Source: Stutzerimonas stutzeri (lineage in GTDB: Bacteria; Pseudomonadota; Gammaproteobacteria; Pseudomonadales; Pseudomonadaceae). From it: DNA of 64,000 bases. Where the stretch lies: the NCBI RefSeq assembly GCF_024448985.1, contig NZ_JAMOII010000002.1, forward strand, positions 310,001 through 374,000, given 5' to 3'. Under the pieces are notes generated by a model that saw only the letters and a program-made list of their open reading frames with translations, made no database searches and was not told the origin of the DNA. How positions within the stretch are numbered: the stretch's first letter is position 1; the number at the start of each line of letters is the position of its first letter. Below are positions 1 through 14,081 of the stretch, piece after piece. The position numbers and the translations under genes were made by a program.

Positions 1-1603
1 GGCGCAACTGTTCGTCGCCATCGAGCAGGCGCAGCTGTTCCTCGACGAGGCGGATGCGCTGGTTGCGTTGCTCCAACTGGGCCGAGAAGGCCACCGCGAC
101 GTTCTTGCCCTCGGCCTTGGCCTGATACATCGCGGTGTCGGCGCGGGTCAGCAGTTGCGTGATGGAATCGGCGTCGGCGGGATAGCGGGCGGTGCCGATG
201 CTCACACCGACCGGGTAGAGCCGGTCTTCGAGGCGGAAGCCGCTGCGGCACAGATCCAGCAAGGCATCGGTAAGTGCCGGCAAACTGTCGTACTCGGTAC
301 CGGTCAGCAGCAGGATGGCGAACTCGTCGCCGGAGAGCCGGGCGAGCGCTGTCTCGTCCTCAGGGTGGGCCTTGCGGTGGTGCTCGAGTACGCCTTGCAT
401 GCGTTTGGCGAGGATTCGCAGCAGGGTGTCGCCGGCATCGTGGCCGTGCTGGTCGTTCACCTGTTTGAAGTTGTCCAGATCGAGAAACAGCAGCGCCAGT
501 TGCCGTCCGCCGCGTGCGCACTGGTTATACATGGCGGTGGCCAGCAGGCCGAAGTGGGCGCGGTTGCTGATATGGGTCAGGCTGTCGGTCCAGGAGATTT
601 CCTGAATACGCTGCAGCGCGGCCGTGTTGCGCTCGTGCAGGGTTTTCATATTCAGCGTCAGGCGACCAATCTCGCCGCCATCGCTGGGTTCGTCCAACGC
701 GTGGCGTTTGCCCTGCAGCAGCTCGGTGAGCTGCTGGTCGAGCCAGCTGATCGGACCGGTGACATAGTGATGGATCAACACCAGCAACAGGCCGACGGAG
801 ATCAGGCAGATCAGCACGACGCCAAACAGAAATGCCAGCCCCAGCGTCTGCAGGCGCGCGGCAATGTAGTCGGGTGACGGCGTCAGGCGTGCGGACAGCG
901 AGCGTGACAGCTCGATATCGGCCGATAGGCCCTGTGGCGCGGGTTTCAATTCGGATGCGATCTCCACCGTCGCACCGTATTCGGCCTCCAGGCGTTGCTT
1001 GAGGCTGATAAAGCGTTCAGGGCGCACCGCCAGTTGCAGGGCGAAGGCTTCCGCTCGCTGGCTGGGCAAAGGGCGGCTGATCGAGGCAGGCAGGATGAAA
1101 TCGGTATCCAACAACAGGCCGCCCTCGGCTGTTTCCACATAGGTCATTTCGCCGGTATGTGGCGTCTGCTTGGCCTCTCGGACAACCTGTTGCTGCGTGG
1201 CGCTCATGGTTGCGAAAGGTGACAGGCTGCTCTCGTAGTAGTAGGCCACCTCACCGCCAGGTTGGACGATGGCGAAGGACACGAATGACATGCGGGTCGT
1301 CGACAGCGAGCGAATGCTTTGCTGGATACGCAGCCCTAACGTTTCGTTACGGTAGGCGGTATTCGACTCACGCAGGAACAGCAGCAACGCTTCGCTGTTG
1401 GCAATCGAGTGGAGCACGCTGCGATTGAACGCCTCGTAATCCAGATAGGCGGATTTGAGCGCCAGCAGCTGTTGCCCCAGACGCGCCTGTTCGAGGCCCA
1501 GCAGTGAAGCGCGCTGGGTCAGGTAAGCGGTCGTTGCAGCCAGCAGCTGGATGATCAGAATGACCGGGAAGATCACCAGCAGCGTGCGTTTACCGAGCGT
1601 CAT
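1..1603 (-). CDS. Membrane diguanylate cyclase (GGDEF), partial at window edge
   Basis: Likely makes cyclic di-GMP at the inner membrane. The reading frame runs from an ATG at 1603 off the left edge (534 residues visible). It has an N-terminal membrane segment (about residues 8-27), a periplasmic region of about 220 residues, a second membrane segment near residue 260-285, a HAMP-like linker, then a GGDEF domain. The active-site motif is SGDEF (S424), a tolerated variant. The frame continues past the GGDEF domain, so an EAL domain may follow outside the window. Its start overlaps the end of the upstream PotD-like gene by 14 bases, which suggests translational coupling and a sensor-output pair. 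No ORF-like alternative on the plus strand is convincing. Confidence 0.9.
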   Translation of the reverse strand, partial: MTLGKRTLLVIFPVILIIQLLAATTAYLTQRASLLGLEQARLGQQLLALKSAYLDYEAFNRSVLHSIANSEALLLFLRESNTAYRNETLGLRIQQSIRSLSTTRMSFVSFAIVQPGGEVAYYYESSLSPFATMSATQQQVVREAKQTPHTGEMTYVETAEGGLLLDTDFILPASISRPLPSQRAEAFALQLAVRPERFISLKQRLEAEYGATVEIASELKPAPQGLSADIELSRSLSARLTPSPDYIAARLQTLGLAFLFGVVLICLISVGLLLVLIHHYVTGPISWLDQQLTELLQGKRHALDEPSDGGEIGRLTLNMKTLHERNTAALQRIQEISWTDSLTHISNRAHFGLLATAMYNQCARGGRQLALLFLDLDNFKQVNDQHGHDAGDTLLRILAKRMQGVLEHHRKAHPEDETALARLSGDEFAILLLTGTEYDSLPALTDALLDLCRSGFRLEDRLYPVGVSIGTARYPADADSITQLLTRADTAMYQAKAEGKNVAVAFSAQLEQRNQRIRLVEEQLRLLDGDEQLR

Positions 1604-2681
1604 GGGCGTTGATCAGTGCGTTGATGATGCGCCGCCGGGTCTGCGTCGCGTCCATCGGACGTGGCTCATAGACCTGGCTGTTCTGCAGTATCGCCTCGGG
1701 AGGATAGATGCTTCGATCCTGGCGGATCTCATCCGGCAGCAGCGCGATGGCCGCCGTGTTGGCCGTTGCGACACCCAGCTCGGCGGCATTCAGGGCGGCG
1801 ATTTCGGGCGTATTGATAAAGCTCAGGAAGCGGTAGGCCAGTGCCTTCTTCTGGCTATTGATCGGCACCGACAGGCAATCGACCCAAAGCAGTGTGCCTT
1901 CCTCCGGCACCACGTAGCGCCAGGGTTCGCCTTCGACGCCCTCGATCGCGTTGAGCACCTGCTGATCGCCGCTGTAGGTCAGCGCCATGTCGGCCTTGTC
2001 GAGGTAGCGCTGGCTGCGTAGCGATGTGATCACGTATTCATAGGTCAGCACGGCGTGGGACTGCGCCATCAGCAACTCATAGGCGGCCTTCAATTCGTCG
2101 ATGCTTGAGGTGTTGATCGAGCGTTGCTGGTAAAGGAGCGGGCCGGCGAGGATGTCTTCGTGGTCCTCCATCATGATGATGTGCGGCGCGTCGCGTTCGG
2201 CCGGTTGCAGCAAGTCGGCCCAGGAATGGGGCGCGACGGGCAGGCGGTCGGAACGATAGGCGATGCCGAGCGTGCCCCAGAGATAGGGAATCGCGTGGGG
2301 CCCGCAGTGGTCGCGCCAGCGTTGCGGCGTGTGCCTCAGATTGGGCAGCGTCTTCTCATCGATCAGGTCCAGCAGCCCGCGTTCGCCGAAGCGGTTGGCG
2401 CTGATCAACTCGGTCAGCGCGATGTCGATCCGGTGATCCGGCTCGGAGAGCACCTCGTCGCGCTTGTCGCCGCTGTCGAAGTAGACCTGTTGAATCTGCA
2501 CGCCGGTCTCGGCCTGCCAGCGCTCGATCACCGCCTCGCTGAGAAAATCCTCCCAGTTCAGCAGATTCAGCGTTTGCGCGGCTTGCAGGGCAGTAGACGG
2601 AAACAGAAGGCTCGTCGCAACCAGAGTCGCGCCGCAGAGCCGCCGCAGATGTGACGCCGACACCAGAGTCTTGTTGTTCAT
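1590..2681 (-). CDS. PotD/PotF-like periplasmic polyamine-binding protein
   Basis: Extracellular solute-binding protein of the spermidine/putrescine family, 363 residues. A signal peptide covers about residues 1-35 (cleavage after LQAA). The mature protein opens with LNLLNWEDFLSE, the usual start of PotD-type proteins, and keeps a WGTLGIAYRSD stretch and a late VDCLSVPINSQKK strand typical of the fold. No permease or ATPase gene lies beside it. Instead its end overlaps the start of a membrane GGDEF gene. That arrangement resembles the Vibrio NspS-MbaA pair, where a PotD-like protein is a sensor rather than a transporter part. The sensory role is inferred; the family assignment is firm. Confidence 0.88.
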   Translation of the reverse strand: MNNKTLVSASHLRRLCGATLVATSLLFPSTALQAAQTLNLLNWEDFLSEAVIERWQAETGVQIQQVYFDSGDKRDEVLSEPDHRIDIALTELISANRFGERGLLDLIDEKTLPNLRHTPQRWRDHCGPHAIPYLWGTLGIAYRSDRLPVAPHSWADLLQPAERDAPHIIMMEDHEDILAGPLLYQQRSINTSSIDELKAAYELLMAQSHAVLTYEYVITSLRSQRYLDKADMALTYSGDQQVLNAIEGVEGEPWRYVVPEEGTLLWVDCLSVPINSQKKALAYRFLSFINTPEIAALNAAELGVATANTAAIALLPDEIRQDRSIYPPEAILQNSQVYEPRPMDATQTRRRIINALINAHDAR

Positions 2682-2901
2682 TCTTCGCTCATCCGCTATG
2701 CAGGCCGGGACTGCACGCTGCAGCGTTCGGCTAGGGTTTGGCAGGCTTCGCAGCTAGGGTTCTATCCGCGTTCCGGCGTTCTCGATCGCAGCGAACATGT
2801 GTTCGCCGGGCATAGCGAGTTAGCGGCGCGCCTGGGTGGCACTTTAATGGCGCCAGACAAACGGCAGCAATATTTTTATAACAATCTTCGGGTTATGCCG
2901 A

Positions 2902-3477
2902 TCAGCGGATAGGGACCGGCTGTTTTGCAGGGCGCACCACGGGGCGGGGCGAAGCGCGCAGCCAGGATGCAAGCAAGCGCGTGGACAGAGGAATGAAGAG
3001 ATAGGTCATCAACGGCGTCAAAGCCAAAGTGCTGAGCAATATCCGCATGACCAGGTTGAGTTCGCTGAGCATCCCCCCGAACAGCATATTGAACAGCAGT
3101 GAGACGGGAAAGAATGCCAGCCAGATCGCCACGCTTTGCTTCCAGCGCGGTGGTACGGCGCTGTCATTGCTACCGAACCAGGCGTCGATGCCTCGAGCGC
3201 GGCGCTCATGGGGCTGAGCGAAGAGTTCGCCGCCACGCTGCAGCCAGGCACGACGTGAGGCCGAATGCTCCCAGGCATCGAGCGTTTGTTCATCGACAAA
3301 GCGGAAGACGATCTGGAACTCATCGTCGCCAGGCGGGGGCGCCAGCACGCCGGAGCCGAGGTAACCGGGAAAGTCCGCGGCCAGCAGTTCACCTTCATGC
3401 AGCCAGGCGAGGAGGTCATGGTAGCGGCCATCGCGGACGCGGCGGGCCACCATCAGCGTAACGGGTTCGGTAGACAT
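2902..3477 (-). CDS. Antibiotic biosynthesis monooxygenase (ABM)-domain membrane protein
   Basis: Protein of 191 residues with an N-terminal ABM-like ferredoxin fold (about residues 5-100, opening VTLMVARRVRDGRYHDLLAW) and two C-terminal membrane segments (about 118-140 and 145-170). Such ABM-membrane fusions are common in Pseudomonas and have no assigned reaction. The start is the ATG at 3477, with GGAG seven bases upstream; an upstream in-frame ATG at 3504 lacks a ribosome site. It stands alone between the PotD-like gene and the sugar dehydrogenase pair. Function remains unknown. Confidence 0.82.
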   Translation of the reverse strand: MSTEPVTLMVARRVRDGRYHDLLAWLHEGELLAADFPGYLGSGVLAPPPGDDEFQIVFRFVDEQTLDAWEHSASRRAWLQRGGELFAQPHERRARGIDAWFGSNDSAVPPRWKQSVAIWLAFFPVSLLFNMLFGGMLSELNLVMRILLSTLALTPLMTYLFIPLSTRLLASWLRASPRPVVRPAKQPVPIR

Positions 3478-3708
3478 CGTGTGTCTCCAGCATAAGCCGG
3501 CCACCCGGATAGGGTATTGGGCAAACGCAGCGCCGGGGTGGTGGGCTGCGGAACAATTCAGGCAAGGATCATGCCCTGATCGTCTGACCGCGACAGGCCC
3601 GGTAAGGTCGGTGCATGCGGTAGACGACGGCGCACTATACGGAGATTTTCTGCACTTGGAAGAGGCCCCGATCGACGGAGCCGCGCTGAAGCGGGCCGCG
3701 ACAACGGG

Positions 3709-4872
3709 TTAGTCGTCGGGCTGTGTCTGACCGGGTGAGCCCGTTTCTGGTTCGGCGGTCGGCGTGACCTTTAGAAGACGGCCCTTGGCGCCGTCGGTAA
3801 GCAGATAGATCGCCCCATCTGGCCCGACCTGCACATCCCGAATCCGCTCGTCGAGCTCGGCGAACAACGTTTCCTGCTCGGCTGGCTTTCCCTCGACGAA
3901 GCGGACCCGACGAACCTCTTTCGATGCCAGTGCTGCATTCAACAGGTCCCCCTGCCAGGCTGGGAACAGCTCGCCGTCGTAGATAGCCAATGCGCTCGGC
4001 GCAATGGAGGGCGTCCAGTGTAGTAACGGCGCAACGGTCTCCGGCTGGCTCTGGAAAGGGCTGACCTGAGCCCCGGTGTAATCGAGGCCGAACGTCGCCA
4101 GAGGCCAGCCGTAGTTGGAGCCGGCCTCGATCAGGTTGATCTCATCGCCGCCCTTCGGGCCGTGTTCGTTGATCAGAAGCCGGTCGTTCTTCCGGTCGTA
4201 GGCGATGCCTTGGACGTTGCGGTGGCCGTAGCTGTATACCTCATTCGCCATGCCGGTGCGGCCATGAAAAGGATTATCTTCGGGCGCTTTGCCCTCGCGT
4301 GTCAGGCGCACCAAAGTACCTAGATGATTATCGAGATTCTGCGCCTGCTCCCGATAATCGAAGCCGTCGCCCAGGGTCAGAACGAGCGTCTTGTCCGGTA
4401 GGAACGCGATGCGCCCGCCATAATGAGAGCCACCCGCCTTGGCGGGATGGGCGTCGAACAGTGTTTCGACCTCTTCCAGGCGATCCTCCACCAGCCGACC
4501 TCGGATCAGCCGGGTGTTGTTCGCACTGTCCTTGCCGTACGCCAAGGTCAGGTACACCCATGGTGAGGTGCGGAAGTCGGGGTCCAGCGTTACGTGCATC
4601 AGGCCCGCCTGGGTGTCCTGATAGCCCATGGGTACGCCGTCGACGGGCTCGTCCCGGAGCTCGCCATCAGCCCCGATCATGCGCAGCCGGCCCACGCGCT
4701 CGGTCACCAGCATTCGCCCGTCAGGGAGAAACGCAAGTGCCCAGGGATACTGAAGGCCTTCGGTCAGCGTTTCGATCTGGTACTCACGCTGTGCGGTAGC
4801 AGGGCTCACCAGTGCGAAAGACAACAGTGCAGCGATAAGCGGTTTCTGGAACATCAGCCTGAGCGAGTTCAC
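3709..4872 (-). CDS. PQQ-dependent glucose/sorbosone dehydrogenase-type periplasmic protein
   Basis: Soluble aldose dehydrogenase family (YliI-like six-bladed propeller), 387 residues. A signal peptide ending SPATAQ is followed by blades with LPDGRMLVTERVGRLR, HYGGRIAFLPDK (probable active-site His), and NEHGPKGGDEINLIEAG. It should oxidise a sugar in the periplasm using PQQ; the substrate cannot be told from sequence. The start is GTG at 4872: GGAGG lies eight bases upstream and the codon overlaps the stop of the upstream membrane gene as GTGA. The ATG at 4854 is the alternative but has a weaker ribosome site. The acidic tail (about 15 residues) is low complexity. Confidence 0.87.
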   Translation of the reverse strand: MNSLRLMFQKPLIAALLSFALVSPATAQREYQIETLTEGLQYPWALAFLPDGRMLVTERVGRLRMIGADGELRDEPVDGVPMGYQDTQAGLMHVTLDPDFRTSPWVYLTLAYGKDSANNTRLIRGRLVEDRLEEVETLFDAHPAKAGGSHYGGRIAFLPDKTLVLTLGDGFDYREQAQNLDNHLGTLVRLTREGKAPEDNPFHGRTGMANEVYSYGHRNVQGIAYDRKNDRLLINEHGPKGGDEINLIEAGSNYGWPLATFGLDYTGAQVSPFQSQPETVAPLLHWTPSIAPSALAIYDGELFPAWQGDLLNAALASKEVRRVRFVEGKPAEQETLFAELDERIRDVQVGPDGAIYLLTDGAKGRLLKVTPTAEPETGSPGQTQPDD

Positions 4873-5312
4873 TGGCGTGGCCTCCGTAGCGTGGCGAACA
4901 GAAGGCCGCCGAATGCGCCGCTGAGCATCATTGCCGCGGTCCCCTCGGCGCTGCGAGTGGCGGCGATCAGCGTCGGCATGGGCGCGAACGCGTCGGCGAT
5001 CTGGAACGCGCACAGCAATCCGAGGCCGCCGGCCAGGAAGTACAGCGGTAATCGCCAAGCGGGTAGAAAGCGGGACGCGAGAGCTGCGAGGGGCATCGCG
5101 AACAGAAGCGTGACGCCAGTAATTGCTGCGTACGCCGGAGTAAAGCCGAGCAGATCACGAACAGTGGCGTTCAGCCGCACCGACAGGCTGACCGGTGCGC
5201 CCAGGCTCTGAATCGCAGCCAGGTTGATCTGGGTTTGAATGATCGAGCCGAGAACAGTGGCAAAGGCCACTGCCAGCAGAAAAATCAGGAGGGCGCGCAG
5301 GTAGGCGGTCAT
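4869..5312 (-). CDS. Small four-helix membrane protein, unknown function
   Basis: Protein of 147 residues with four predicted membrane helices (about residues 5-27, 50-72, 78-97, 118-140) and no motif I recognise. The ATG at 5312 has GGAAG six bases upstream; the longer in-frame start at 5354 has none. Its stop overlaps the GTG of the sugar dehydrogenase by four bases, so the two are translated together. It may anchor or support the periplasmic dehydrogenase, but that rests only on the coupling. Confidence 0.75.
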   Translation of the reverse strand: MTAYLRALLIFLLAVAFATVLGSIIQTQINLAAIQSLGAPVSLSVRLNATVRDLLGFTPAYAAITGVTLLFAMPLAALASRFLPAWRLPLYFLAGGLGLLCAFQIADAFAPMPTLIAATRSAEGTAAMMLSGAFGGLLFATLRRPRQ

Positions 5313-5378
5313 GCTCAGCTTCCGGAAGTTGTGCCGAGGATTATCTACAGGCATCGTCGCGTGTAGGCATAAAGACTG

Positions 5379-6383
5379 TTACGGGGTTTTTGCCTGGTCA
5401 GCCAGCCGCGCCCCGAACGCATCGAGCGCCGCTTCACCCACGACATCTTCAGCCAGCAGCGGCAATTGTTGCAGAGCAAGGATGGGTAGCGCTTGGCGCA
5501 AGGTGTTCAGATGCCGTTGCTCCTGCTCATGGCGTTCGGCGAGGAAGGGGCCGGCGTCGGCTGGGGAGCGCTTGTTCACAACGAGGCCTGCCACTTCGAT
5601 ACCGCTGCGTTGCAACTGCGCCTGCAGCTCGATGGTTTCCAATACGGGTAGTCGCTCAGCGGCGAGGACGATGACAAAGGCGCAGCGCTCTCGATCCTGG
5701 ATCAGGTCACGCAGCCGGCTGAAGCGTTCACGGCGTCGGTAGAGCAGCTGTCTCACGCGCTGTTGACGGTCTTCCCCGTCCCCCTTGTCCTGGCCGAGCA
5801 CGCTTTCGCCCAAACCGCTGTCGTCCTTGCCGAAATTGCGCAGCACATCGCCGAAGCGTTTGCTGCGTTCCTGGCGTTGCAGCAGGCCTTCGGTCCAGGC
5901 CGTCATCATTTCCGGCAGTGCCATCAGGCGCGAGGTGTGGCCGGACGGTGCGGTGTCGAATACCAGCAGGTCGTAGTCGTCCAGACCTTGAACGACGGTA
6001 TCGGCGATGCGTTCGAGCAGGGCCGCTTCGTGCATGCCGGGTGCGTCGCGGGAGAGTGTCATGTGCTTGTCGACCTCGCCTGCCAGATGCGGCGGCATCA
6101 ACCGTCGCAAGGCGCTGCCCACTTCGTCGAGGTGTTGGCGTACGGTCTCGTCGGGATCGAGCTCCAGGCCGTCGAGCCCGGCCGCCAAACGTACGATATT
6201 CGGGCCGATGGAGCGGTTCCACAGATGGCCGAGGTTGTGCGCGGGATCGGTGGAAACCAACAGCACTCGGCGCCCGGCTCGTGCCTGATGCAGCGCGGTG
6301 GCTGCAGCGACGGTGGTCTTGCCGACGCCGCCCTTACCACCGATGAACAGCACCCGGCTTCGTGCGGCCAGTGCTAGCAGCAT
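5379..6383 (-). CDS. ArsA/Get3-family ATPase
   Basis: Single-domain ArsA-type ATPase of 334 residues. The deviant Walker A FIGGKGGVGKTT lies at about residues 13-24, switch I has STDPAHNLG, and switch II has FDTAPSGHTSRLMALP. It lacks the second half of classical arsenite-pump ArsA, and no arsB, arsC or arsD is nearby, so arsenite efflux is unlikely. Its start overlaps the end of the preceding Cys-Cys-tail gene by ten bases, and that gene overlaps cstA, so the three form one transcription unit. A role in delivering or assembling a membrane partner would fit the Get3 relationship, but is inference. Confidence 0.88.
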   Translation of the reverse strand: MLLALAARSRVLFIGGKGGVGKTTVAAATALHQARAGRRVLLVSTDPAHNLGHLWNRSIGPNIVRLAAGLDGLELDPDETVRQHLDEVGSALRRLMPPHLAGEVDKHMTLSRDAPGMHEAALLERIADTVVQGLDDYDLLVFDTAPSGHTSRLMALPEMMTAWTEGLLQRQERSKRFGDVLRNFGKDDSGLGESVLGQDKGDGEDRQQRVRQLLYRRRERFSRLRDLIQDRERCAFVIVLAAERLPVLETIELQAQLQRSGIEVAGLVVNKRSPADAGPFLAERHEQEQRHLNTLRQALPILALQQLPLLAEDVVGEAALDAFGARLADQAKTP

Positions 6384-6637
6384 CCGATGTGATCCAGTGG
6401 TGAATGCTCCATGCCCATGCGGCGATGCCAGTCATGGAAGCGTTCATAGAGTTCCGGCATCAGCTCCAGGGTGTACCAGGCGGCAGGGTTGGGTACGCCC
6501 AGCGCCTCGGAAAACACCAGCAGCATGAACAGGTCGTCCTCGTCGCGCCGGGCGCGGGCGAAGGTACGCCGGTAGGGCGCGACGTAGAACTCCTGTAGCC
6601 CGTCCGACAACCGCTGGAAGAACGGCCGCTGCGTCAC
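6374..6637 (-). CDS. Small Cys-Cys-tail protein (cory-CC-star type)
   Basis: Protein of 87 residues rich in aromatic and charged residues, with a central FMLLVFSEALGVPNPAAWYTLELMPELYERFHDWHRR region and a C terminus ending in two cysteines directly before the stop. I recall a family named cory-CC-star with this ending, usually next to an ArsA-type ATPase; the name should be checked. The gene is wedged between cstA and the ATPase with overlaps at both ends (four and ten bases). The invariant terminal Cys pair suggests metal or thiol chemistry, possibly as a client or adaptor of the ATPase. No catalytic domain is visible. Confidence 0.8.
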   Translation of the reverse strand: MTQRPFFQRLSDGLQEFYVAPYRRTFARARRDEDDLFMLLVFSEALGVPNPAAWYTLELMPELYERFHDWHRRMGMEHSPLDHIGCC

Positions 6638-8316
6638 GGCAGCGGCTCGTCGGTGGTCATCTCGGCAGCCGGATCGCGGCCCTTGCGCATGGCGATGATC
6701 GCTTCAAGGGTGACCCACAGCGCTGCGATCAGAATCACCACGTCCATGCCCAGCAGCAGCCAGTTCTCGGCGCGGTAGAACTGGCCCATCTGCACTAGCA
6801 GCGCATAGATCGACATCGCCAGCAGGAACACCAGCGGCACCAGGGTGTACATCGCCGGACGACCCTGCTTGATCAGCAGCACGGTGATGATCGACAGCGT
6901 CAGGCCCGCCAGCAGCTGATTGGTGGTGCCGAACAGCGGCCAGATCGCCATGCCGCCGCTGCCCTCGGAGCCAGCGCCAAAGGCCAGGGCCATGCACACG
7001 CCGACTGCGATCAGCGTGCCGACCAGAGTGTTCACCTTCATGCCCGCCAGCTCGCCGGCTTCCTGAATCACGAAGCGTTGCAGGCGCAGGCCGGTGTCCA
7101 TGGTGGTGCCGGCGAAGAGAATCGCCATTACCGCAAGAATAGTGGCGCCGAGGTCCGCTGGCAGACCCAGGCCGTTGGCAAGCAGCGTGCCGCCGCCTTG
7201 GACGAAGGCATTCACGCCGCCCTGGCCGAAGGCGGTGTAGACCTGTTGCCAGTCGAGCAACGTAGCGAAACCGGCAGTGCAGCAGATGATCGCCGCCAGC
7301 GAGAGCATGCCTTCACCCACCGCGCCGAAATAGCCGACGAAGCGGGCGTCGGTCTCCTTGTCCAGCTGCTTGGACGTGGTGCCGGACGCCACCAGCCCGT
7401 GGAAGCCAGAGATCGCCCCGCAGGCGATGGTCACGAACAGCAGCGGCACGATGCTCGGACTATCGGCAGGTAATTCGGTGTTGTACGCCGGCGCAACCAA
7501 ATCCGGCGCACCAAACAGCACCGCCAGATAGAGCAGGCCGAGACCGACGAACAACTGCAGGCCGTTGATGTAGTCACGCGGCTGCAGCAGCACCCACACC
7601 GGCAGCAGCGACGCGATGGCGGCATAAGCGAACAGCAGCAGAATCCAGAACGACTTGGCGCTCAGGCCCAGCACGGTATCCGGCAGGGTGATCGGGTAGG
7701 CGTTGCCCAGCAGGATCAGCAGGTAGAGCACGATCACGCCGCCCAGGGAGGGCCACAGCAATTTGACGTTGTAGCGGTAGATGAGCTGGCCGATTATCAG
7801 CGCGACGAGGATGGCGCCCCATACTGGAATTACCGAAGTCGGCGTCGACACCAGCAGGTTGGAGATCACCGCGGCAAAGGCGCCGTTGACCATCAGCAAT
7901 ACAAGGAAGATCACGACCAGAAACAGACTGCGGCCGCGCGAACCGATCAGCCGGCCGCTGAGCATGCCCACCGATTGGCCCCGGTTGCGAGCGCTGGCCC
8001 AGAGCGCGCCGAAGTCATGAATGCCGGCGAAGAAGATGGTGCCCAGCACCACCCAGAGAAACGCCGGCACCCAGCCCCAGATCACCGCAATGGCTGGGCC
8101 GACGATAGGTGCGGCGCCTGCCACTGAGGTGAAGTGGTGGCCCCAGAGTACGAACCGGTTGGTCGGCACATAATCCACACCGTCGCGCATGGTATGGGCC
8201 GGGGTGCGGTAGTTCGGATCGAGGCGGTAGATCTTCTCAGCGATGAACTTCGAGTAGAACAGATACCCCAGCGACATCGCCGCCAGCCCCACAATCATCA
8301 ACGCAATCGCACTCAT
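6634..8316 (-). CDS. cstA: Carbon starvation protein CstA (pyruvate/peptide transporter family)
   Basis: Inner-membrane transporter of 560 residues with about 15 membrane segments. The CstA signature runs from the N terminus (YRTPAHTMRDGVDYVPTNR, then WGHHFTSVAGAAPIVGPAIA) to the later TSKQLDKETDARFVGYFGAV. The family moves pyruvate, and peptides in some species, with protons. The ATG at 8316 is preceded by GAGGAG seven bases away; a longer in-frame start at 8517 adds about 67 non-homologous residues and is rejected. It is the first gene of a unit with the Cys-Cys-tail protein and ArsA-type ATPase. No clear sigma-54 or CRP site was found upstream. Confidence 0.95.
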   Translation of the reverse strand: MSAIALMIVGLAAMSLGYLFYSKFIAEKIYRLDPNYRTPAHTMRDGVDYVPTNRFVLWGHHFTSVAGAAPIVGPAIAVIWGWVPAFLWVVLGTIFFAGIHDFGALWASARNRGQSVGMLSGRLIGSRGRSLFLVVIFLVLLMVNGAFAAVISNLLVSTPTSVIPVWGAILVALIIGQLIYRYNVKLLWPSLGGVIVLYLLILLGNAYPITLPDTVLGLSAKSFWILLLFAYAAIASLLPVWVLLQPRDYINGLQLFVGLGLLYLAVLFGAPDLVAPAYNTELPADSPSIVPLLFVTIACGAISGFHGLVASGTTSKQLDKETDARFVGYFGAVGEGMLSLAAIICCTAGFATLLDWQQVYTAFGQGGVNAFVQGGGTLLANGLGLPADLGATILAVMAILFAGTTMDTGLRLQRFVIQEAGELAGMKVNTLVGTLIAVGVCMALAFGAGSEGSGGMAIWPLFGTTNQLLAGLTLSIITVLLIKQGRPAMYTLVPLVFLLAMSIYALLVQMGQFYRAENWLLLGMDVVILIAALWVTLEAIIAMRKGRDPAAEMTTDEPLP

Positions 8317-8670
8317 TCGAAGGCTCCTCGCACGCGTGCCGATACAGGCATCACGCAGGCTTGGGCTGTTGCCCGACAGTAACTTGAACACCCTGACGGG
8401 TGCGGTGTTCGGTATCGCCAGCAAGCCCCGGCATGGATGCCTTGGCGCTGCGCCAGTGTTGGCGATTGAGGTTCGAGCGGCCGCGGCGCCAATGGGTTCC
8501 CGCCGATTGCCTCGCATCGGTAGGAGCCGCCTGCGCGTTGAAGTGCGAAAAGAAGCGGGGCGGGCGCTTCCCGCGATTGGTCAGAGCTGACCGATAAGGT
8601 AGCGAAACGCGAACCCTGGCCAGCCGTTCAGGTCCGTTAAAGGACGAGCTTGAACCACCGGAGCATGTTC
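8317..8670. other. Intergenic region between divergent cstA and PfkB-kinase genes
   Basis: This 354-base gap must hold the promoters of two divergent units. It contains two short inverted repeats, GGCATGGATGCC at 8430-8441 and TGGCG-CTG-CGCCA at 8443-8455, close to the middle. They could be operators or form a structured leader, but they are short and GC-rich. No convincing -35/-10 pair, riboswitch or small gene was recognised. Confidence 0.5.
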
Positions 8671-9630
8671 ATGGAGCGCCTAACGCTGTTGTCCTTGGGC
8701 AGCATCAATGCCGATTTTCAGGTGCGGGTCGACGAACCGCCCGGCGGTCGCGAGACCCTGCTGGCCCATGATCTGTGTCGCCTGTCCGGCGGCAAGGCCA
8801 GCAATACCGCCTACCTCGCTGCACGCTTCGGCCATCGCAGCATCCTGCTGGGTCGGGTGGGTGACGACGATCTGGCCGAGCAGGCGCTCGGCCCATTGCG
8901 CGAGGCTGGGATAGAGATCGACGGCGTCGGTCGCGCGGCGGGCCAGGCCACTGGCGTTTCGATGATCATGGTGCCGCCGGATGCAAAGAAGCACATCGTG
9001 CTGGCGACCAATGCCAACGATTGCTGGGACGAGGCGGCCGCCGATGCCATCTGTTCATGCATCGAGAGCTGCGAGACCCCGGCCCGTCTGGCGCTCGACT
9101 ACGAAATCCCCGCCTGGGTGGTGCGGCGCGCCGTCGAGACCGCGGCGCGCCGAGACATCCCGGTGGTGCTCGATCCGTCGTTTCCGGATCGGCTGGAGCG
9201 CGACCTGCTGCCGATGTTGCACGCGATCACGCCGAACGCCGACGAGGCCGAAGCGCTGGTCGGGTATCCGGTCGACAACATCGAGGCCGCTGCCGATACC
9301 GCGCGTGAGTTGCAGCGGGCCGGCACGGAGATCGTTTGCATCAAGCTGAGTGATGGCGGTTGCGTCCTGGCCTGTGGCGAGGAGGGTTCGCATATTCCGC
9401 CGGGGCAGGTGGAGCCGGTCGATACCACGGGCGCCGGCGATGCCTTTACCGGCGTCTTCGCCATCGCGTTGCTGGAGGGGCGCGCGCCACGCGAAGCCGC
9501 TGCCTGGGGCGTGGCCGCGGCCAACCTGGCCGTCACCGCCTATGGCTCGCAGCCGGCGTATCCCGATCGTGAACAGGTCGCCGCGATGGCGCAGCAGCTG
9601 TTGCGTGCTGCGAGGGTGCTGCATGACTGA
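8671..9630 (+). CDS. PfkB/ribokinase-family carbohydrate kinase
   Basis: Cytosolic sugar kinase of 319 residues. Signature 1 is GGKASNTAYLAARFG near residue 35, and signature 2 is DTTGAGDAFTGVF near residue 250, with the catalytic Asp in GAGD and the anion hole. The sugar cannot be named. The start is the ATG at 8671 with GGAG seven bases upstream; ATG 8665 and TTG 8650 are alternatives. Its end overlaps the GH65 phosphorylase start by eight bases, so the kinase probably acts on a sugar released by that enzyme or on its precursor. Confidence 0.88.
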   Translation: MERLTLLSLGSINADFQVRVDEPPGGRETLLAHDLCRLSGGKASNTAYLAARFGHRSILLGRVGDDDLAEQALGPLREAGIEIDGVGRAAGQATGVSMIMVPPDAKKHIVLATNANDCWDEAAADAICSCIESCETPARLALDYEIPAWVVRRAVETAARRDIPVVLDPSFPDRLERDLLPMLHAITPNADEAEALVGYPVDNIEAAADTARELQRAGTEIVCIKLSDGGCVLACGEEGSHIPPGQVEPVDTTGAGDAFTGVFAIALLEGRAPREAAAWGVAAANLAVTAYGSQPAYPDREQVAAMAQQLLRAARVLHD

Positions 9631-12025
9631 GTCGAACGCTCCGAGCCAAGTGGTTTTCGATAGCTACGACCCGGATGACGAACGCCGGCGCGAGGCGCTG
9701 CTGGCACTGGGCAATGGCCTGTTGGGCTGCCGCGCCTGCGCGCCGGAGGCAGCCGCCCTGCATTCGGCTGATGGGGGTGACCATTACGCCGGCCTGTACC
9801 GTGCCGGCTGGTACGACGATGCTCCGCGCGAGGTCAATGGCAGTGCGGTGCGGATGGCCGCGCTGGTCAACCTGCCCGACCCGTTCGGCCTGAGCTTCGC
9901 GCTGGACGACGGCGACTGGTACAGCCTCGACGGTGTCGAGCTGCGCGGGTACCGCCAGTGCCTGACGCTGGAAAACGGCCTGCTGGAGCGCGAGCTGGAT
10001 TTCGTCTTGGCGGGCCATGCGCTGCGGCTGCACGAGACGCGCTTCGTCAGCATGGCCTCGCCACAGCTTGCGGTGCTGCGTTGGGAGCTCAAGGTACCGC
10101 GAGACGTCGCTCGCATCCGTCTTCGCGCGATCCTCGATGGCGGCGTGACCAATGCGGCGATCCCCCGCAATGACGCGTACGAAGGGCGACGTCTCAGTGC
10201 GCTGAGCATCCAGCACGACGAGCAGGGGCGTGCTGCGCTGAGTGCCAGCGTCGACGACAACCATCGCCGCCTGGCGATGGCCGTGGGCCTCCGCACGCCG
10301 GGGCAGGAATCGCACTGGCATGGCCAGCAGGTCGAGCAGCGGCTCATCCAACAGGCTGAATGCACGGTGCCGGCGGACGGGCGGCTGGTCATCGAAAAGC
10401 GGGTGTTGGTGCAGGTCGATGACGAGCGGCCAGCCGACGATGATCACGCGCGCGAGCAGGTGCTCCAGCAACTGCCGCAGGCTGATTTCGACGACCTGCA
10501 ACGCGCGCACACCGATGCCTGGGAGCAGCTGTGGCGGCGCATGCCGATCGAATCGGATGATGCCCAGCTGCAGCTGGCGCTGCGCTTTCATGCCTTTCAT
10601 CTCTTGCAAACGGTGTCAGGGAACAGCGTCGGCAAGGATCTCGGCTTTCCCCCGCGCGGCTGGATGGAGGGGTACTACGGCCAAGTGTTCTGGGATGAGC
10701 TGTTCGCCTTCCCGTTTCTCGTCACCCATTTTCCCGAGCTGGCGCGCAACCTGGTCGACTATCGCCATCGACGTCTGGATACGGCCCGTGAACGGGCGCG
10801 TCGAGCCGGTTTGCGCGGCGCCATGTTTCCCTGGCGCAGTGCCGACAGTGGCGAGGAGGAAACCCCGCCATGGCAGTTCAACCCGATGTCGGGGCGCTGG
10901 ATGCCCGATCACACCCACCTGCAGCGCCATATCGGCTCGGCGGTGGCGTTCGATGCGTGGCAACTCTATCTCGCCACCGGTGACGAAGCGCTGCTGGCCG
11001 GGCCGGTCGGCGAGCTGATCATCGAAGTGGCGCGCTTCTGGGCCAGCCTGGCGCGCTTCGACGAGTCTCGGCAGCGCTATCTGATCTGTGGCGTGGTCGG
11101 CCCCGATGAGTATCACGACGGCTATCCCGGCGCGGCGGAGCCCGGCCTGAACGACAACGCCTATACCAATCTGATGGCGGTCTGGACGCTGTGCTGCGCG
11201 CGGCAGGTGCTCGAGTTGCTCCCCAATGACAAGGCCGATGCGCTGCGCGACAGGCTGCAACTTGAAGCGAATGAGGTGGAGAATTGGGAGCGGATCAGCC
11301 AGCGCATCTATCTCCCCTTCGTGGAAGACGACGTGCTCAGCCAGTTCGAGGGGTTCGAAAGGCTCGAACTGCCTCCGCAAGAGTGGCTGCACGGCGACCG
11401 TCCGCGGCTGGACTGGATGCTCGAAGCGCGACATGACAGTTGTGACCGTTATCAGCTGACCAAGCAGGCGGATGTGCTGATGGCACACCATCTGTTGCCG
11501 CAACACCAGTATCAGGCGCTGTTTCAGTGGCTCGGCTATCGGCACGACGAGGACGCCCTGCATCGCACGCTGGCTTACCATCTGGCGCGCCTGACACATG
11601 AGTCGAGCCTGTCGAACGTCAGCTGCGCCGGCGCGCTGGCCGAGGTCGATAGCGAGGCGTCATGGGCCTATTTTCAGCAAACCCTGGATGTCGATCTGTG
11701 TACGCCGGGCGACGAAGGCACGCAGGAAGGCGTGCATCTTGGCGCCATGTCCGGGTCACTGGATGTGCTGCAGCGCCGTTACCTCGGCGTGCGGCCAGAG
11801 CTCGATGGCCTGCATGTTTTTCCCATGCCTCCGGCTGAGCTGCGGCGCGTGGCGCTGTCTTTGGTCTACCGTCAGGCGCGCCTGCATCTGCAGCTGGACG
11901 ATGGTTGGCTGACGGTGACGGCTGACAGCGCCAACCACCGGTCGGTAGCCGTGCATCACGCGGCAGGTCGCGAGCAGCTCGAACCGGGCCAGTCGCTGCG
12001 GATGCCATGTCGGGCATCGAAGTGA
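9623..12025 (+). CDS. Glycoside hydrolase family 65 disaccharide phosphorylase
   Basis: Protein of 800 residues with the GH65 layout: N-terminal beta-sandwich, (alpha/alpha)6 barrel and a small C-terminal sheet. The barrel has GYYGQVFWDELFAFPFL, and the catalytic-acid segment is VVGPDEYHDGYPG, with Glu in DEYH. Family members split maltose, trehalose, kojibiose, nigerose or related glucosides with phosphate, giving beta-glucose 1-phosphate. The exact glucoside is not predictable here. No beta-phosphoglucomutase or sugar transporter lies next to it, only a PfkB kinase that it overlaps by eight bases. The ATG at 9623 is in frame with a long upstream extension that is only shadow of the kinase gene. 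Confidence 0.9.
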   Translation: MTESNAPSQVVFDSYDPDDERRREALLALGNGLLGCRACAPEAAALHSADGGDHYAGLYRAGWYDDAPREVNGSAVRMAALVNLPDPFGLSFALDDGDWYSLDGVELRGYRQCLTLENGLLERELDFVLAGHALRLHETRFVSMASPQLAVLRWELKVPRDVARIRLRAILDGGVTNAAIPRNDAYEGRRLSALSIQHDEQGRAALSASVDDNHRRLAMAVGLRTPGQESHWHGQQVEQRLIQQAECTVPADGRLVIEKRVLVQVDDERPADDDHAREQVLQQLPQADFDDLQRAHTDAWEQLWRRMPIESDDAQLQLALRFHAFHLLQTVSGNSVGKDLGFPPRGWMEGYYGQVFWDELFAFPFLVTHFPELARNLVDYRHRRLDTARERARRAGLRGAMFPWRSADSGEEETPPWQFNPMSGRWMPDHTHLQRHIGSAVAFDAWQLYLATGDEALLAGPVGELIIEVARFWASLARFDESRQRYLICGVVGPDEYHDGYPGAAEPGLNDNAYTNLMAVWTLCCARQVLELLPNDKADALRDRLQLEANEVENWERISQRIYLPFVEDDVLSQFEGFERLELPPQEWLHGDRPRLDWMLEARHDSCDRYQLTKQADVLMAHHLLPQHQYQALFQWLGYRHDEDALHRTLAYHLARLTHESSLSNVSCAGALAEVDSEASWAYFQQTLDVDLCTPGDEGTQEGVHLGAMSGSLDVLQRRYLGVRPELDGLHVFPMPPAELRRVALSLVYRQARLHLQLDDGWLTVTADSANHRSVAVHHAAGREQLEPGQSLRMPCRASK

Positions 12026-12098
12026 GCAACTTGCGCTCTAGGTTCGCCCGCCGTTGCAACGACCCGAAACAAGCCCATCACCAGCGCGACGGAACGCC

Positions 12099-12149
12099 AT
12101 GAACGATTTTTTGATCGACACTTCGATCAGCCGAAAGGAGACCTTGTGA
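12099..12149 (+). CDS. Possible 16-residue leader ORF before mrpE
   Basis: A short frame starts at ATG 12099 and reads MNDFLIDTSISRKETL before a TGA at 12147-12149. That stop overlaps the mrpE GTG start (GTGA), and the mrpE ribosome site AAAGGAG lies inside it. The frame also spans the inverted repeat at 12112-12129. A ribosome reading it would open that hairpin and end on the mrpE start, the usual layout for coupling. Its own ribosome site is weak (CGGAA), so translation is uncertain. Confidence 0.35.
   Translation: MNDFLIDTSISRKETL
12112..12129 (+). promoter_or_regulatory. Inverted repeat TGATCGA-CACT-TCGATCA upstream of mrpE
   Basis: A perfect 7-4-7 inverted repeat ends four bases before the mrpE AAAGGAG site. 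In RNA it would form a small hairpin next to the ribosome site; in DNA it could be a repressor operator. It falls inside the candidate leader ORF. Confidence 0.45.
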
Positions 12150-12640
12150 GCAGAGAAACCGGATCGCACCGCCGCTGGATCGATGGACTGGGTTGGGTGC
12201 TGCTCTATGCCGCGGTCTGGGCGATGTTTGCTGGAGGCAGCGGTTGGGCCCTGGGTGTGCCAAGCGTACTGCTTGCTGCAGGGCTGTCGTTCTGGCTGGG
12301 TCTGCGGTCCTGGCAACCCTCGCTGGTAAGCCTGCCGGGCTTCGTCTGGTTCGTCCTCAAACACATGACGCTGGGTGCCTGGGACGTGGCGCTGCGCGCG
12401 CTGCATCCAGGGCGGTCGCTGCAGCCGGCGTGGGTCGATTACCCGCTGCGCTGCGAGTCGCCGCAGATACGGCTGTTGCTGTCGGCAATGGTCGGGCTGC
12501 TGCCGGGCACGCTGGCGTCGCGGATCGATGGCGACTGCATGCGTATGCACGTGCTGGACGAGCGGCAGCCGTGGGAAGCGACGCTGATCGAGCTGGAAGC
12601 GCGTCTGACCCAGTTGCTCCCCGCGAGGGACGAGCATTGA
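12146..12640 (+). CDS. mrpE: Mrp antiporter subunit E
   Basis: MnhE/MrpE family, 164 residues, with three N-terminal membrane helices and a soluble tail. The family signature PGTLASRIDGDCMRMHVLD (about residues 119-137) is clear. GTG start at 12146 with AAAGGAG five bases upstream. This is the first gene of an eight-gene antiporter operon in which neighbours overlap by one to eight bases. The subunit belongs to the membrane complex that exchanges sodium or potassium for protons. Confidence 0.9.
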   Translation: MSRETGSHRRWIDGLGWVLLYAAVWAMFAGGSGWALGVPSVLLAAGLSFWLGLRSWQPSLVSLPGFVWFVLKHMTLGAWDVALRALHPGRSLQPAWVDYPLRCESPQIRLLLSAMVGLLPGTLASRIDGDCMRMHVLDERQPWEATLIELEARLTQLLPARDEH

Positions 12641-12891
12641 TGGCGGTGTACTCGGCGCTGTTGCTGCTGACCATCGGCGTCGGTCTGGTGCGCGTCGTGC
12701 TGGGCCCGAAGCGGGTGGACCGGCTCCTTGCGATCCAGCTGTTCGGCACCGCCGGCACGGCTTTGCTGCTGGTCATGGCGCAGTGGCAGGAACAGCCCGC
12801 GCTGCGTGATGTGGCGCTGCTGCTGGGTTTGCTGGCGGCGGTTGCCAGTGCCGCGTTGGTGCAACTGCTGCGGCAAAGCCACCATGATTGA
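12640..12891 (+). CDS. mrpF: Mrp antiporter subunit F
   Basis: Protein of 83 residues with three membrane helices. The MrpF hallmark VRVVLGPKRVDRLLAIQLFGTAG (about 18-40) matches the GPTxxDRVxALD segment of the family. Its ATG overlaps the mrpE stop as TGATG. It is part of the small-subunit set (E, F, G) of the Mrp complex. Confidence 0.9.
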   Translation: MAVYSALLLLTIGVGLVRVVLGPKRVDRLLAIQLFGTAGTALLLVMAQWQEQPALRDVALLLGLLAAVASAALVQLLRQSHHD

Positions 12892-13180
12892 CCTACTTCT
12901 CAACGGCTTGAGTTGGTTGCTGCTGCTCGCCGGCCTGCTTTTCTTTGCCGCCGGCAGCATCGGCCTGCTGCGCTTTCCCGACGCGGTCAGCCGGCTGCAC
13001 GCCCTGACCAAGGCCGATACCCTGGGACTCGGACTGGTGGTCGCCGGCTTGTCGGTCCGCGCCGAGAGTCTGCTCGAAGTGGGACAGATGCTGCTGATCT
13101 GGCTACTGCTAATGGCCTCCAGCGCCACCGCCTGCCAGCTGCTGGCACGCCAGGCGAGCGAGGATCCGGACGATGACTGA
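12884..13180 (+). CDS. mrpG: Mrp antiporter subunit G
   Basis: Protein of 98 residues with three helices and the MnhG signature GSIGLLRFPDAVSRLHALTKADTLG at about 24-48. ATG at 12884 lies eight bases inside the end of mrpF; the longer upstream frame is shadow. It completes the E-F-G set and overlaps the next gene by eight bases. Confidence 0.9.
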   Translation: MIDLLLNGLSWLLLLAGLLFFAAGSIGLLRFPDAVSRLHALTKADTLGLGLVVAGLSVRAESLLEVGQMLLIWLLLMASSATACQLLARQASEDPDDD

Positions 13181-14081
13181 CTGGCTGTTCGACGGCACGC
13201 TGGGTCTGCTGTTGCTTGCACTCGCGCTGGGCGCGCTGCACGGGCGCAACCTCTACGCCAGCGTGCTGCTGTTCGTTGCCTTCGGCATGGTGATGGCGGT
13301 GATCTGGGCACGCTTGGGCGCGGCGGATCTCGCGCTGGCCGAGGCCGCCATCGGCGCCGGGCTGACCGGCGTGTTGCTGTTTGCCGCGCTGGCGCGTGAG
13401 CCGGGTCGCCAGGAATTGCCGGACATAACCCCGATCCGTCAGCGACTGGCGGCAGCGGTGGTGGTGTTGCCGTTGCTGTTCATGCTGCTGCAAGGCATCG
13501 CTCCGCTGGCCGAAGGCACATCAACGCTGCCCGATGAGCTTGACCGGGTGATGCCGCGCACCGGTGTCAGCCATCCGGTGACGGCGGTGCTGCTGAACGT
13601 GCGGGCCTGGGACACGCTGCTCGAACTGGCCGTGCTGCTGCTGGCGCTGCTCGGTGCACGACAGCTCGGCCCGCGCCGCCTCGATCTGGCCGAACCCTGG
13701 CCACTGTTGCGTGCCTGGGCACGGGTGCTGGCACCATTGCTGGTGCTGGCGGCGGGCTACATCCTCTGGCGCGGCGCCAGCTCGCCGGGCGGGGCCTTCC
13801 AAGCGGGTTCGCTGCTCGCTGCGGGCGTGGTGCTGCTGCGCCTGTCGGCTCTGCTGCCGAGGTTGCGCTGGTCGTTCGCTCCGCTGCGGCTGCTGGTGCT
13901 GGGCGGATTGTTGCTGTTCATCGGCGTAGCCATCGCCACCGCCTGGCTGGGCGATGGCTGGCTGAACTACCCGGACGATTCGGCCAAGCTCATCATCCTG
14001 CTGATCGAAGCCGTGGCCACCCTGTCGATCGCCGCCAGTCTGAGCCTGTTGGTCATTGGCGAAGGCGAGGAATCGTCATGA
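13173..14081 (+). CDS. Fused MrpA-tail (DUF4040/MbhE-like) and MrpB subunit
   Basis: Protein of 302 residues with about nine membrane helices. The first third (GRNLYASVLLFVAFGMVMAVIWARLGAADLALAEAAIGAG) matches the DUF4040/MbhD module that in classical Mrp sits at the C terminus of MrpA. The last half (ILWRGASSPGGAFQAGSLLAAG) is MnhB/MrpB, whose hallmark is the GPGGGFxxG loop. So the tail of MrpA and MrpB form one polypeptide here, and the proton-pumping core is encoded separately. This resembles archaeal Mbh-type arrangements. Confidence 0.85.
   Translation: MTDWLFDGTLGLLLLALALGALHGRNLYASVLLFVAFGMVMAVIWARLGAADLALAEAAIGAGLTGVLLFAALAREPGRQELPDITPIRQRLAAAVVVLPLLFMLLQGIAPLAEGTSTLPDELDRVMPRTGVSHPVTAVLLNVRAWDTLLELAVLLLALLGARQLGPRRLDLAEPWPLLRAWARVLAPLLVLAAGYILWRGASSPGGAFQAGSLLAAGVVLLRLSALLPRLRWSFAPLRLLVLGGLLLFIGVAIATAWLGDGWLNYPDDSAKLIILLIEAVATLSIAASLSLLVIGEGEESS

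Follow-up and report, generated by a model that had tools for sequence, protein, structure and literature searches.

A Cys-Cys-tail protein and a single-domain ArsA/Get3-type ATPase as a probable partner unit of the carbon-starvation transporter CstA

Castillo and Saier (2010) described 26 cases in which the carbon-starvation transporter CstA occurs with a homologue of the ATPase ArsA, 24 of them together with a small protein called CstX (PMC2963123; this paper and the others cited here are drawn on in part, through the passages that concern the genes in question). In these cstA-cstX-arsA operons the ATPase has a single domain of about 330 amino acids (aa), the small protein has about 90 aa, there is no arsR, and the trees of the components are similar; the ATPase was proposed to energise CstA, with CstX as a linker (PMC2963123). 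The three essential cysteines of ArsA were reported to be absent from the single-domain homologues, and pairs of neighbouring ArsA homologues were recorded in two organisms, as was a CstX-related duplication in Thermococcus kodakarensis (PMC2963123). YbdD and DUF466 are mentioned nowhere in that paper, and a Cys-Cys tail does not appear in the passages drawn on (PMC2963123). The literature searched yielded no test, since 2010, of the proposal that the ArsA homologue powers CstA. In Escherichia coli, CstA has a helper, YbdD: loss of ybdD lowers pyruvate uptake to 20% of the wild type and loss of cstA to 13% (PMC5847655), and uptake by CstA is inhibited by protonophores (PMC7730263). The YbdD family, DUF466 or PF04328, has in some Campylobacterales a selenocysteine as its last residue, preceded by Cys, for which a redox role has been proposed (PMC4607533), and it is listed as 'KCU-star' (PMC13188914, PMC9312934); our literature search found no paper treating DUF466 together with CstA. 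Here we describe a set of the cstA-cstX-arsA kind in a 64,000-nucleotide (nt) stretch of the genome of Stutzerimonas stutzeri (contig NZ_JAMOII010000002.1, positions 310,001 to 374,000; this whole stretch is called the window), and present evidence that the small protein, here called Cory, and the ATPase probably form a dedicated partner unit of CstA in which the ATPase acts on Cory.

In the window the three genes are read from the minus strand. The first, cstA (6634..8316), encodes a 560-aa transporter of the short, or window-type, CstA family (PF02554, E 5e-136; short clade of the CstA tree). It overlaps by 4 nt (GTGA) with cory (cstX; 6374..6637), which starts with GTG and encodes an 87-aa protein ending in HIGCC, scoring 139.7 bits against NF041419 (CC_star_Cory; curated cut-off 80) and having no Pfam match at E 0.1. 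The third gene (5379..6383) encodes a 334-aa single-domain ATPase of the ArsA/Get3 type (PF02374; TIGR00345, 206.7 bits, cut-off 135) and overlaps cory by 10 nt: the codons for the C-terminal Cys-Cys (CC) together with the stop codon of cory (TGC TGC TAG, 6374..6382) run into the ATPase ATG at 6383-6381, which spans the Gly-Cys codons of cory. Coordinates and family matches thus agree with an earlier sequence-only reading, which had seen here three overlapping genes for CstA, a Cys-Cys-ending protein and a Get3/ArsA-type ATPase. With CstA, a CstX-sized protein of about 90 aa and a single-domain ArsA homologue in one operon, the set is of the published class (PMC2963123), and NF041419 would, judging by size and place, be the same family as CstX. 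The same reading knew of no function described for such a set; in fact both the set and a proposal for what it does have been in print since 2010 (PMC2963123), and NCBI has named the small-protein family NF041419, although the name 'cory-CC-star' itself was not found in the literature searched, where 'CC-star' occurs only in unrelated papers. It had also stated that the operon stands without any ars genes. This rests on the list of open reading frames (ORFs) for bases 1-14000, in reading which no ars gene was seen (no search aimed at arsB, acr3 or arsR was made), and on the ATPase being the sole full-length ArsA-type protein of the genome, where the other 6 of 7 ArsA-type matches are short or partial stretches. 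A search of the whole genome found 1 CstA gene and 0 matches to YbdD (PF04328).

The operon type is real, widespread and already described. What appears to be new, and was not found stated in the literature searched, as far as the parts of the papers drawn on go, is the inseparability of Cory and the ATPase, a reciprocal distribution with respect to YbdD, and an apparent swap of partners. The first of these emerged from loci collected with the small protein as the sole query. An alignment of 7 small proteins retrieved at least 564 relatives among at least 591 pattern matches, and the best-scoring 80 were kept, so that these 80 loci are the closest relatives rather than a random sample, some being almost identical to the window or to one another. 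In all 80, the ATPase gene directly follows the small gene. CstA is present in 47 of them (short CstA upstream in 46, long CstA downstream in the locus L093), while in the remaining 33, mostly from metagenome genomes labelled Gammaproteobacteria or Pseudohongiella, no CstA lies nearby and the pair instead follows ratA and/or rnfH (at least one of them in 33/33; these and other neighbours were named from reading the sequences, not by profile). A gene for a sodium-dependent (NSS-like) transporter, likewise named from its sequence, stands upstream of ratA in 28 of these 33 loci (e.g., L045, L047, L052-L054). When 17 of the 33 genomes with an unlinked pair were searched whole, CstA was found elsewhere in 17/17, in every case short (16 typed by score and G403 by match pattern).

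The two genes are also absent together. In four genomes (f9) the short CstA is nested in a clade of carriers of the unlinked pair, and these genomes lack both the small gene and any ArsA/Get3 match above the cut-off. Such a match was also missing from 7 other genomes that have short CstA but no small gene (0/11 overall); the positive controls G298 and G308 gave one, and none of the four YbdD genomes searched alongside did. Among short CstA genes without Cory and the ATPase, those of L154 and L155 adjoin what we take to be a predicted permease gene, and those of L154 and L157 a gene presumably for a CBS/hemolysin-like membrane protein. Finally, the two genes are doubled together: three actinomycete genomes (G638, G493 and G496; loci L189, L190/L191 and L192, of which that of G493 extends over two contigs) have the tandem CstA-Cory-Cory-ATPase-ATPase, with the Cory-like and the ATPase gene each present twice and CstA once. 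The two small proteins of L189 are 49% identical and its two ATPases 37%. Since the three genomes may be one lineage, the doubling may be a single event. Because the pair departs from cstA jointly, is missing jointly and is doubled jointly, the ATPase is tied to the small protein rather than to CstA, and it probably acts on the CC-tail protein.

This linkage bears on the idea that the ATPase, working in the manner of Get3 and with Cory as an adaptor, inserts CstA itself. The sequence closeness of the ATPase to the structures of Get3 and ArsA makes such an activity conceivable, CstA being a large membrane protein; but CstA is not tail-anchored, it occurs without the ATPase and also with YbdD alone, and the pair leaves the cstA neighbourhood together, so we consider this explanation improbable.

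The reciprocal pattern became visible when CstA was divided into short and long (E. coli-type) forms, the latter being taken as those with a best E below 1e-140 as read from the result table. In a sample of 398 genomes of Pseudomonadota, the window genome included, CstA was present in 189, YbdD in 67 and the small gene in 7; all 7 small-gene genomes have short CstA and no YbdD. Long CstA was present in 77 genomes, and YbdD in 66 of these versus 1 of the 321 others. L149 and L150 (genomes G034 and G018) and nine more genomes are cases in which long CstA occurs and the genome gives no match to YbdD. At 28 long-CstA loci (L126-L153) a YbdD-like gene adjoins in 25 (that of L148 was added by eye and is backed by the PF04328 match of G360) and none was seen for 3; the GTPase gene yjiA adjoins in 6. 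The tails of the 25 YbdD-like proteins end in CC in 23 and in CPC in 2, and 4 YbdD-like proteins of the unlinked set also end in CPC (Cys-Pro-Cys instead of Cys-Cys is found at L139, L151 and L106-L109).

The same pattern holds among genomes that carry the small gene. Of these, 62 were searched whole, 17 with an unlinked and 45 with a linked pair (L034 and L050 left out), and 62/62 carry CstA. Of the 8 that have long CstA, 7 also have YbdD, as against 0 of the other 54 (Fisher 1.6e-8, uncorrected for relatedness, so that its true weight is smaller because many of the genomes are related). Among the 45 linked genomes, all of which have CstA, 4 have long CstA and 3 of these have YbdD, compared with 0/41 of the others; among the 17 unlinked ones YbdD occurs in 4, exactly the four that also have long CstA. 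The eighth genome with long CstA is G415, a Burkholderiales metagenome-assembled genome (MAG) of 1.9 Mb that contains L093. Its only CstA is long, and 227 nt separate its gene from the preceding ATPase gene. Nothing in the genome matches YbdD, and apart from Cory no ORF of 40 aa or more in the locus ends in CC or CPC. In a tree of 116 CstA sequences (a quick tree with a midpoint root and some open forks, that of L093 among them, in which L140 and L160 were flagged as long branches) short and long CstA form two separate groups, with L093 inside the long one, where 30 of the 33 other rows have YbdD. L093 is thus an apparent partner swap, a long CstA standing beside Cory-ATPase instead of YbdD. 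This distribution suggests that Cory-ATPase takes the place of YbdD, the helper of E. coli-type CstA. The sequence-only reading had asked whether CstA copies without the ATPase differ, and they do insofar as long CstA goes with YbdD, but some short CstA have neither partner.

Could the linkage be devoid of functional meaning, the genes being hitch-hiking neighbours? The existence of CstA without the pair would fit this, yet CstA is present in 62/62 small-gene genomes, including 17/17 in which the genes are unlinked, the pattern with YbdD is reciprocal, and the set is spread over Gammaproteobacteria, Alphaproteobacteria, Actinomycetota and Bacillota. We therefore regard mere hitch-hiking as very improbable. 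The same spread answers the concern, raised with the sequence-only reading, that the three families might co-occur only in close relatives.

The published proposal, in which ATP hydrolysis by the ArsA homologue directly powers transport by CstA with Cory as the coupling linker (Castillo and Saier 2010), draws on the operon and on an argument from co-evolution (PMC2963123). The GKGGVGK P-loop of the ATPase, kept in 90/90 loci (defined below), agrees with it. ArsA-ArsB is a precedent for an ATPase that energises a transporter in this way. Against the proposal stand the dependence of E. coli CstA on the proton gradient (PMC7730263), the 28 long-CstA loci, none of which showed an ArsA-type gene in the 3 kb after cstA, the persistence of short CstA in genomes without the ATPase, and the position of the ATPase gene, which follows the small gene and not cstA. 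Direct energising is on balance rather unlikely.

The tail of Cory was examined in 90 loci, which comprise the 80 best, the window, 6 further genomes and 3 plasmid loci, and whose selection relied on internal motifs of the small protein and not on its tail. The CC ending is kept in 90/90 loci and in 83/83 distinct sequences. Background ORFs (at least 150 aa, ATG start) almost never end in CC, 0/90 in the window and 9/1063 in the 80 loci, 8 of the 9 being frames that run into the small gene, so the ending is not due to chance. One might regard the tail as a by-product of the overlapping start codon, given that in 80/90 loci the final 10 bases of cory contain a start codon (in L049 only a TTG, beside an ATG 5 nt on). 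This was rejected, since CC is kept in 10/10 loci without an overlapping start, and the retention of CC in other overlap registers in Actinomycetota counts against it as well. In a sample of 198 actinomycete genomes, 18 match the small-gene profile, 14 of them over the cut-off, and 15 of the 18 retain the CC ending though much of the remaining protein has diverged; 3, those with the doubled genes, lack it. Outside the bacteria, the small gene has a match below the cut-off in the archaeon Haloferax volcanii, and a search with the Cytobacillus protein for plasmid relatives further afield returned the same six records. By sequence search, no relative of Cory and none of CstA was found among solved structures. 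An AlphaFold2 model of Cory from 23 sequences (mean predicted local distance difference test 78.6) has helices at residues 6-46, 51-58 and 60-73 and a coil tail at 74-87; with a predicted template modelling score (pTM) of 0.37, only this division into helices and tail is usable.

Homology between Cory and YbdD was sought and could not be detected. Cory does not belong to the YbdD/YjiX family PF04328, as it has no Pfam match and hhalign does no better than with shuffled columns (10.98 versus a shuffled mean of 10.3; 17/60 column shuffles as high; probability below 1%). The C-terminal cysteines common to the two families may therefore be convergent, or their relationship may lie beyond detection.

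The ATPase is a member of the TRC40/GET3/ArsA family, and it is close in sequence to the structures 3zq6 (E 2.8e-43) and ArsA 1f48 (E 3.2e-44). Besides the P-loop, the DTAPxGHT motif is conserved. Against the arsenite-pump ArsA family TIGR04291, which is defined by two ATPase domains, it scores only 137.2 bits (cut-off 650), and with its 334 aa it has one; the metal-binding cysteines of the arsenite pump are lacking too. No cysteine is conserved in the ATPase, the maximum at any alignment column being 22/89 rows, and the window copy has only one. A relay of metal or arsenite through cysteines of the ATPase is not supported, and the metal or thiol step envisaged by the sequence-only reading is likewise unsupported as far as the ATPase itself is concerned.

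The dithiol could still serve in another way, as a redox or metal-binding arm that acts as a thiol switch or relay and senses or reduces something at CstA, the ATPase merely keeping the tail loaded or accessible. The constancy of CC in 90/90 loci and in 15/18 actinomycete genomes would suit such an arm. YbdD, a family with no detectable homology to Cory, also ends in CC or CPC, and in E. coli, btsT and yjiX are followed in their operon by the gene for YjiA, a GTPase with a CICC motif. The terminal selenocysteine of some Campylobacterales YbdD proteins, with its proposed redox role (PMC4607533), points the same way. However, because the ATPase has no conserved Cys, no thiol relay would run through it, and CC is lost in the doubled version. 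We consider this explanation rather unlikely.

We thus favour the view that Cory and the ATPase are a dedicated partner unit of CstA and that the ATPase acts on Cory, and hold it to be likely, but a number of observations weigh against it. In 11/11 genomes searched that have short CstA but no small gene, no ArsA/Get3 match exceeds the cut-off; no CC-tail gene was seen downstream of short CstA in 12/12 loci examined from f9, f39, f72 and f36, some of them partial; and the small gene is found in only 7 of 112 sampled CstA genomes without long CstA, although the 112 include weak or partial matches. Since short CstA exists without the pair, the pair is not indispensable for every CstA. In the doubled version, the small proteins have no CC tail and there are no CC codons after their stops, and the ATPases retain their P-loop while the DxAPxG switch motif is altered (6/6 frames). 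As for the relation to YbdD, 11 of the 77 long-CstA genomes have no YbdD match (in one of them, G114, the contig ends within cstA), no homology could be detected between Cory and YbdD, and a paper on the kinetics of E. coli CstA makes no mention of YbdD (PMC7730263). The partner swap comes from one 1.9-Mb MAG that is possibly incomplete, and the CstA of L093 has its own leader of 227 nt. The model of Cory is weak (pTM 0.37), and no experimental test of the function of the cstA-cstX-arsA set, interaction or transport data included, was found in the literature searched.

A working model of the partner unit can be outlined as follows: CstA would be the uptake module for pyruvate or a similar small acid, by analogy with E. 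coli CstA, and Cory would be its cytosolic subunit or regulator, carrying a flexible C-terminal dithiol arm. The ATPase, presumably as a dimer, would bind Cory, and its ATP-driven opening and closing would load Cory onto CstA or reset it there, much as Get3-type proteins hand over their clients. Transport would be powered by the proton gradient, ATP being spent on loading or resetting Cory and not on moving the substrate. We infer the chemical role of the dithiol, the loading step and the substrate of short CstA, and the mechanism in full, in which the Cory-ATPase unit loads or resets Cory on CstA and thereby does the job of YbdD, is possible at somewhat less than an even chance. That the three genes belong together and that the ATPase serves the transporter, as the sequence-only reading had supposed, is retained, the service being probably rendered through the small protein. 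ArsA/Get3 proteins and YjiA are P-loop NTPases of the same class. More tentatively still, Cory and YbdD may have become partners of CstA independently with the same C-terminal dithiol, Cory having its own ATP-driven loader, a Get3/ArsA relative with a soluble CC-tail client, and YjiA perhaps being the counterpart for YjiX, so that a dithiol arm and a P-loop NTPase would be a general means of controlling proton-driven uptake by CstA.

The distribution makes two predictions: that the client of the ATPase is the CC-tail protein, and that Cory-ATPase replaces YbdD for at least one natural CstA. A C-terminal dithiol is common to the two small-protein families, between which no homology was detected, and in YbdD/DUF466 it can contain selenocysteine. 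If the favoured explanation is true, it would give a function to a subfamily of Get3/ArsA and a chemical role in pyruvate uptake to an unexplained selenoprotein family.

Around the operon, a promoter scan of 4600-8800 found none (0.6 expected), and the 6 terminator-like sites in this region (2.6 expected) are all within genes. A gene for a 147-aa membrane-like protein, without a Pfam or NCBIfam match, follows 66 nt downstream of the ATPase gene on the minus strand (4869-5312) and may be co-transcribed with it. On the other side, 8650-14081 contains a divergent gene, then a large gene and then further genes, which from the ORF reading we take to be a PfkB-like sugar kinase gene, a sugar-phosphorylase-like gene and Mrp-type antiporter genes, respectively.

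In comparison with known systems, the window protein falls within NF041419, an entry that consists of a name only and for which no paper was found. The ATPase resembles the Get3/TRC40 and ArsA ATPases in passing TIGR00345 and in its closeness to 3zq6 and 1f48, but differs in having no conserved cysteines and no known tail-anchored or arsenite client. The arrangement as a whole recalls ArsD-ArsA-ArsB, in which a small protein with vicinal cysteine pairs, the ArsA ATPase and a membrane transporter come together. Unlike that system, the single-domain homologues are reported to lack the essential ArsA cysteines (PMC2963123), in line with the absence of conserved Cys here. The cstA-cstX-arsA operons share with the window the three components, the single operon, an ATPase of about 330 aa and a small protein of about 90 aa (PMC2963123), whereas 33 of the 80 loci collected here keep the pair away from cstA, with CstA elsewhere in all 17 tested. 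The E. coli systems cstA-ybdD and btsT-yjiX-yjiA, the latter at L105 3910-7280 in K-12 and in the same order at L133-L136, L152 and L153, have long CstA, a small protein without detectable homology to Cory and, in the second case, a GTPase from another family; like the window, they place a short CC-ending protein after a CstA-family transporter, and in btsT-yjiX-yjiA a P-loop GTPase gene is next in the row.

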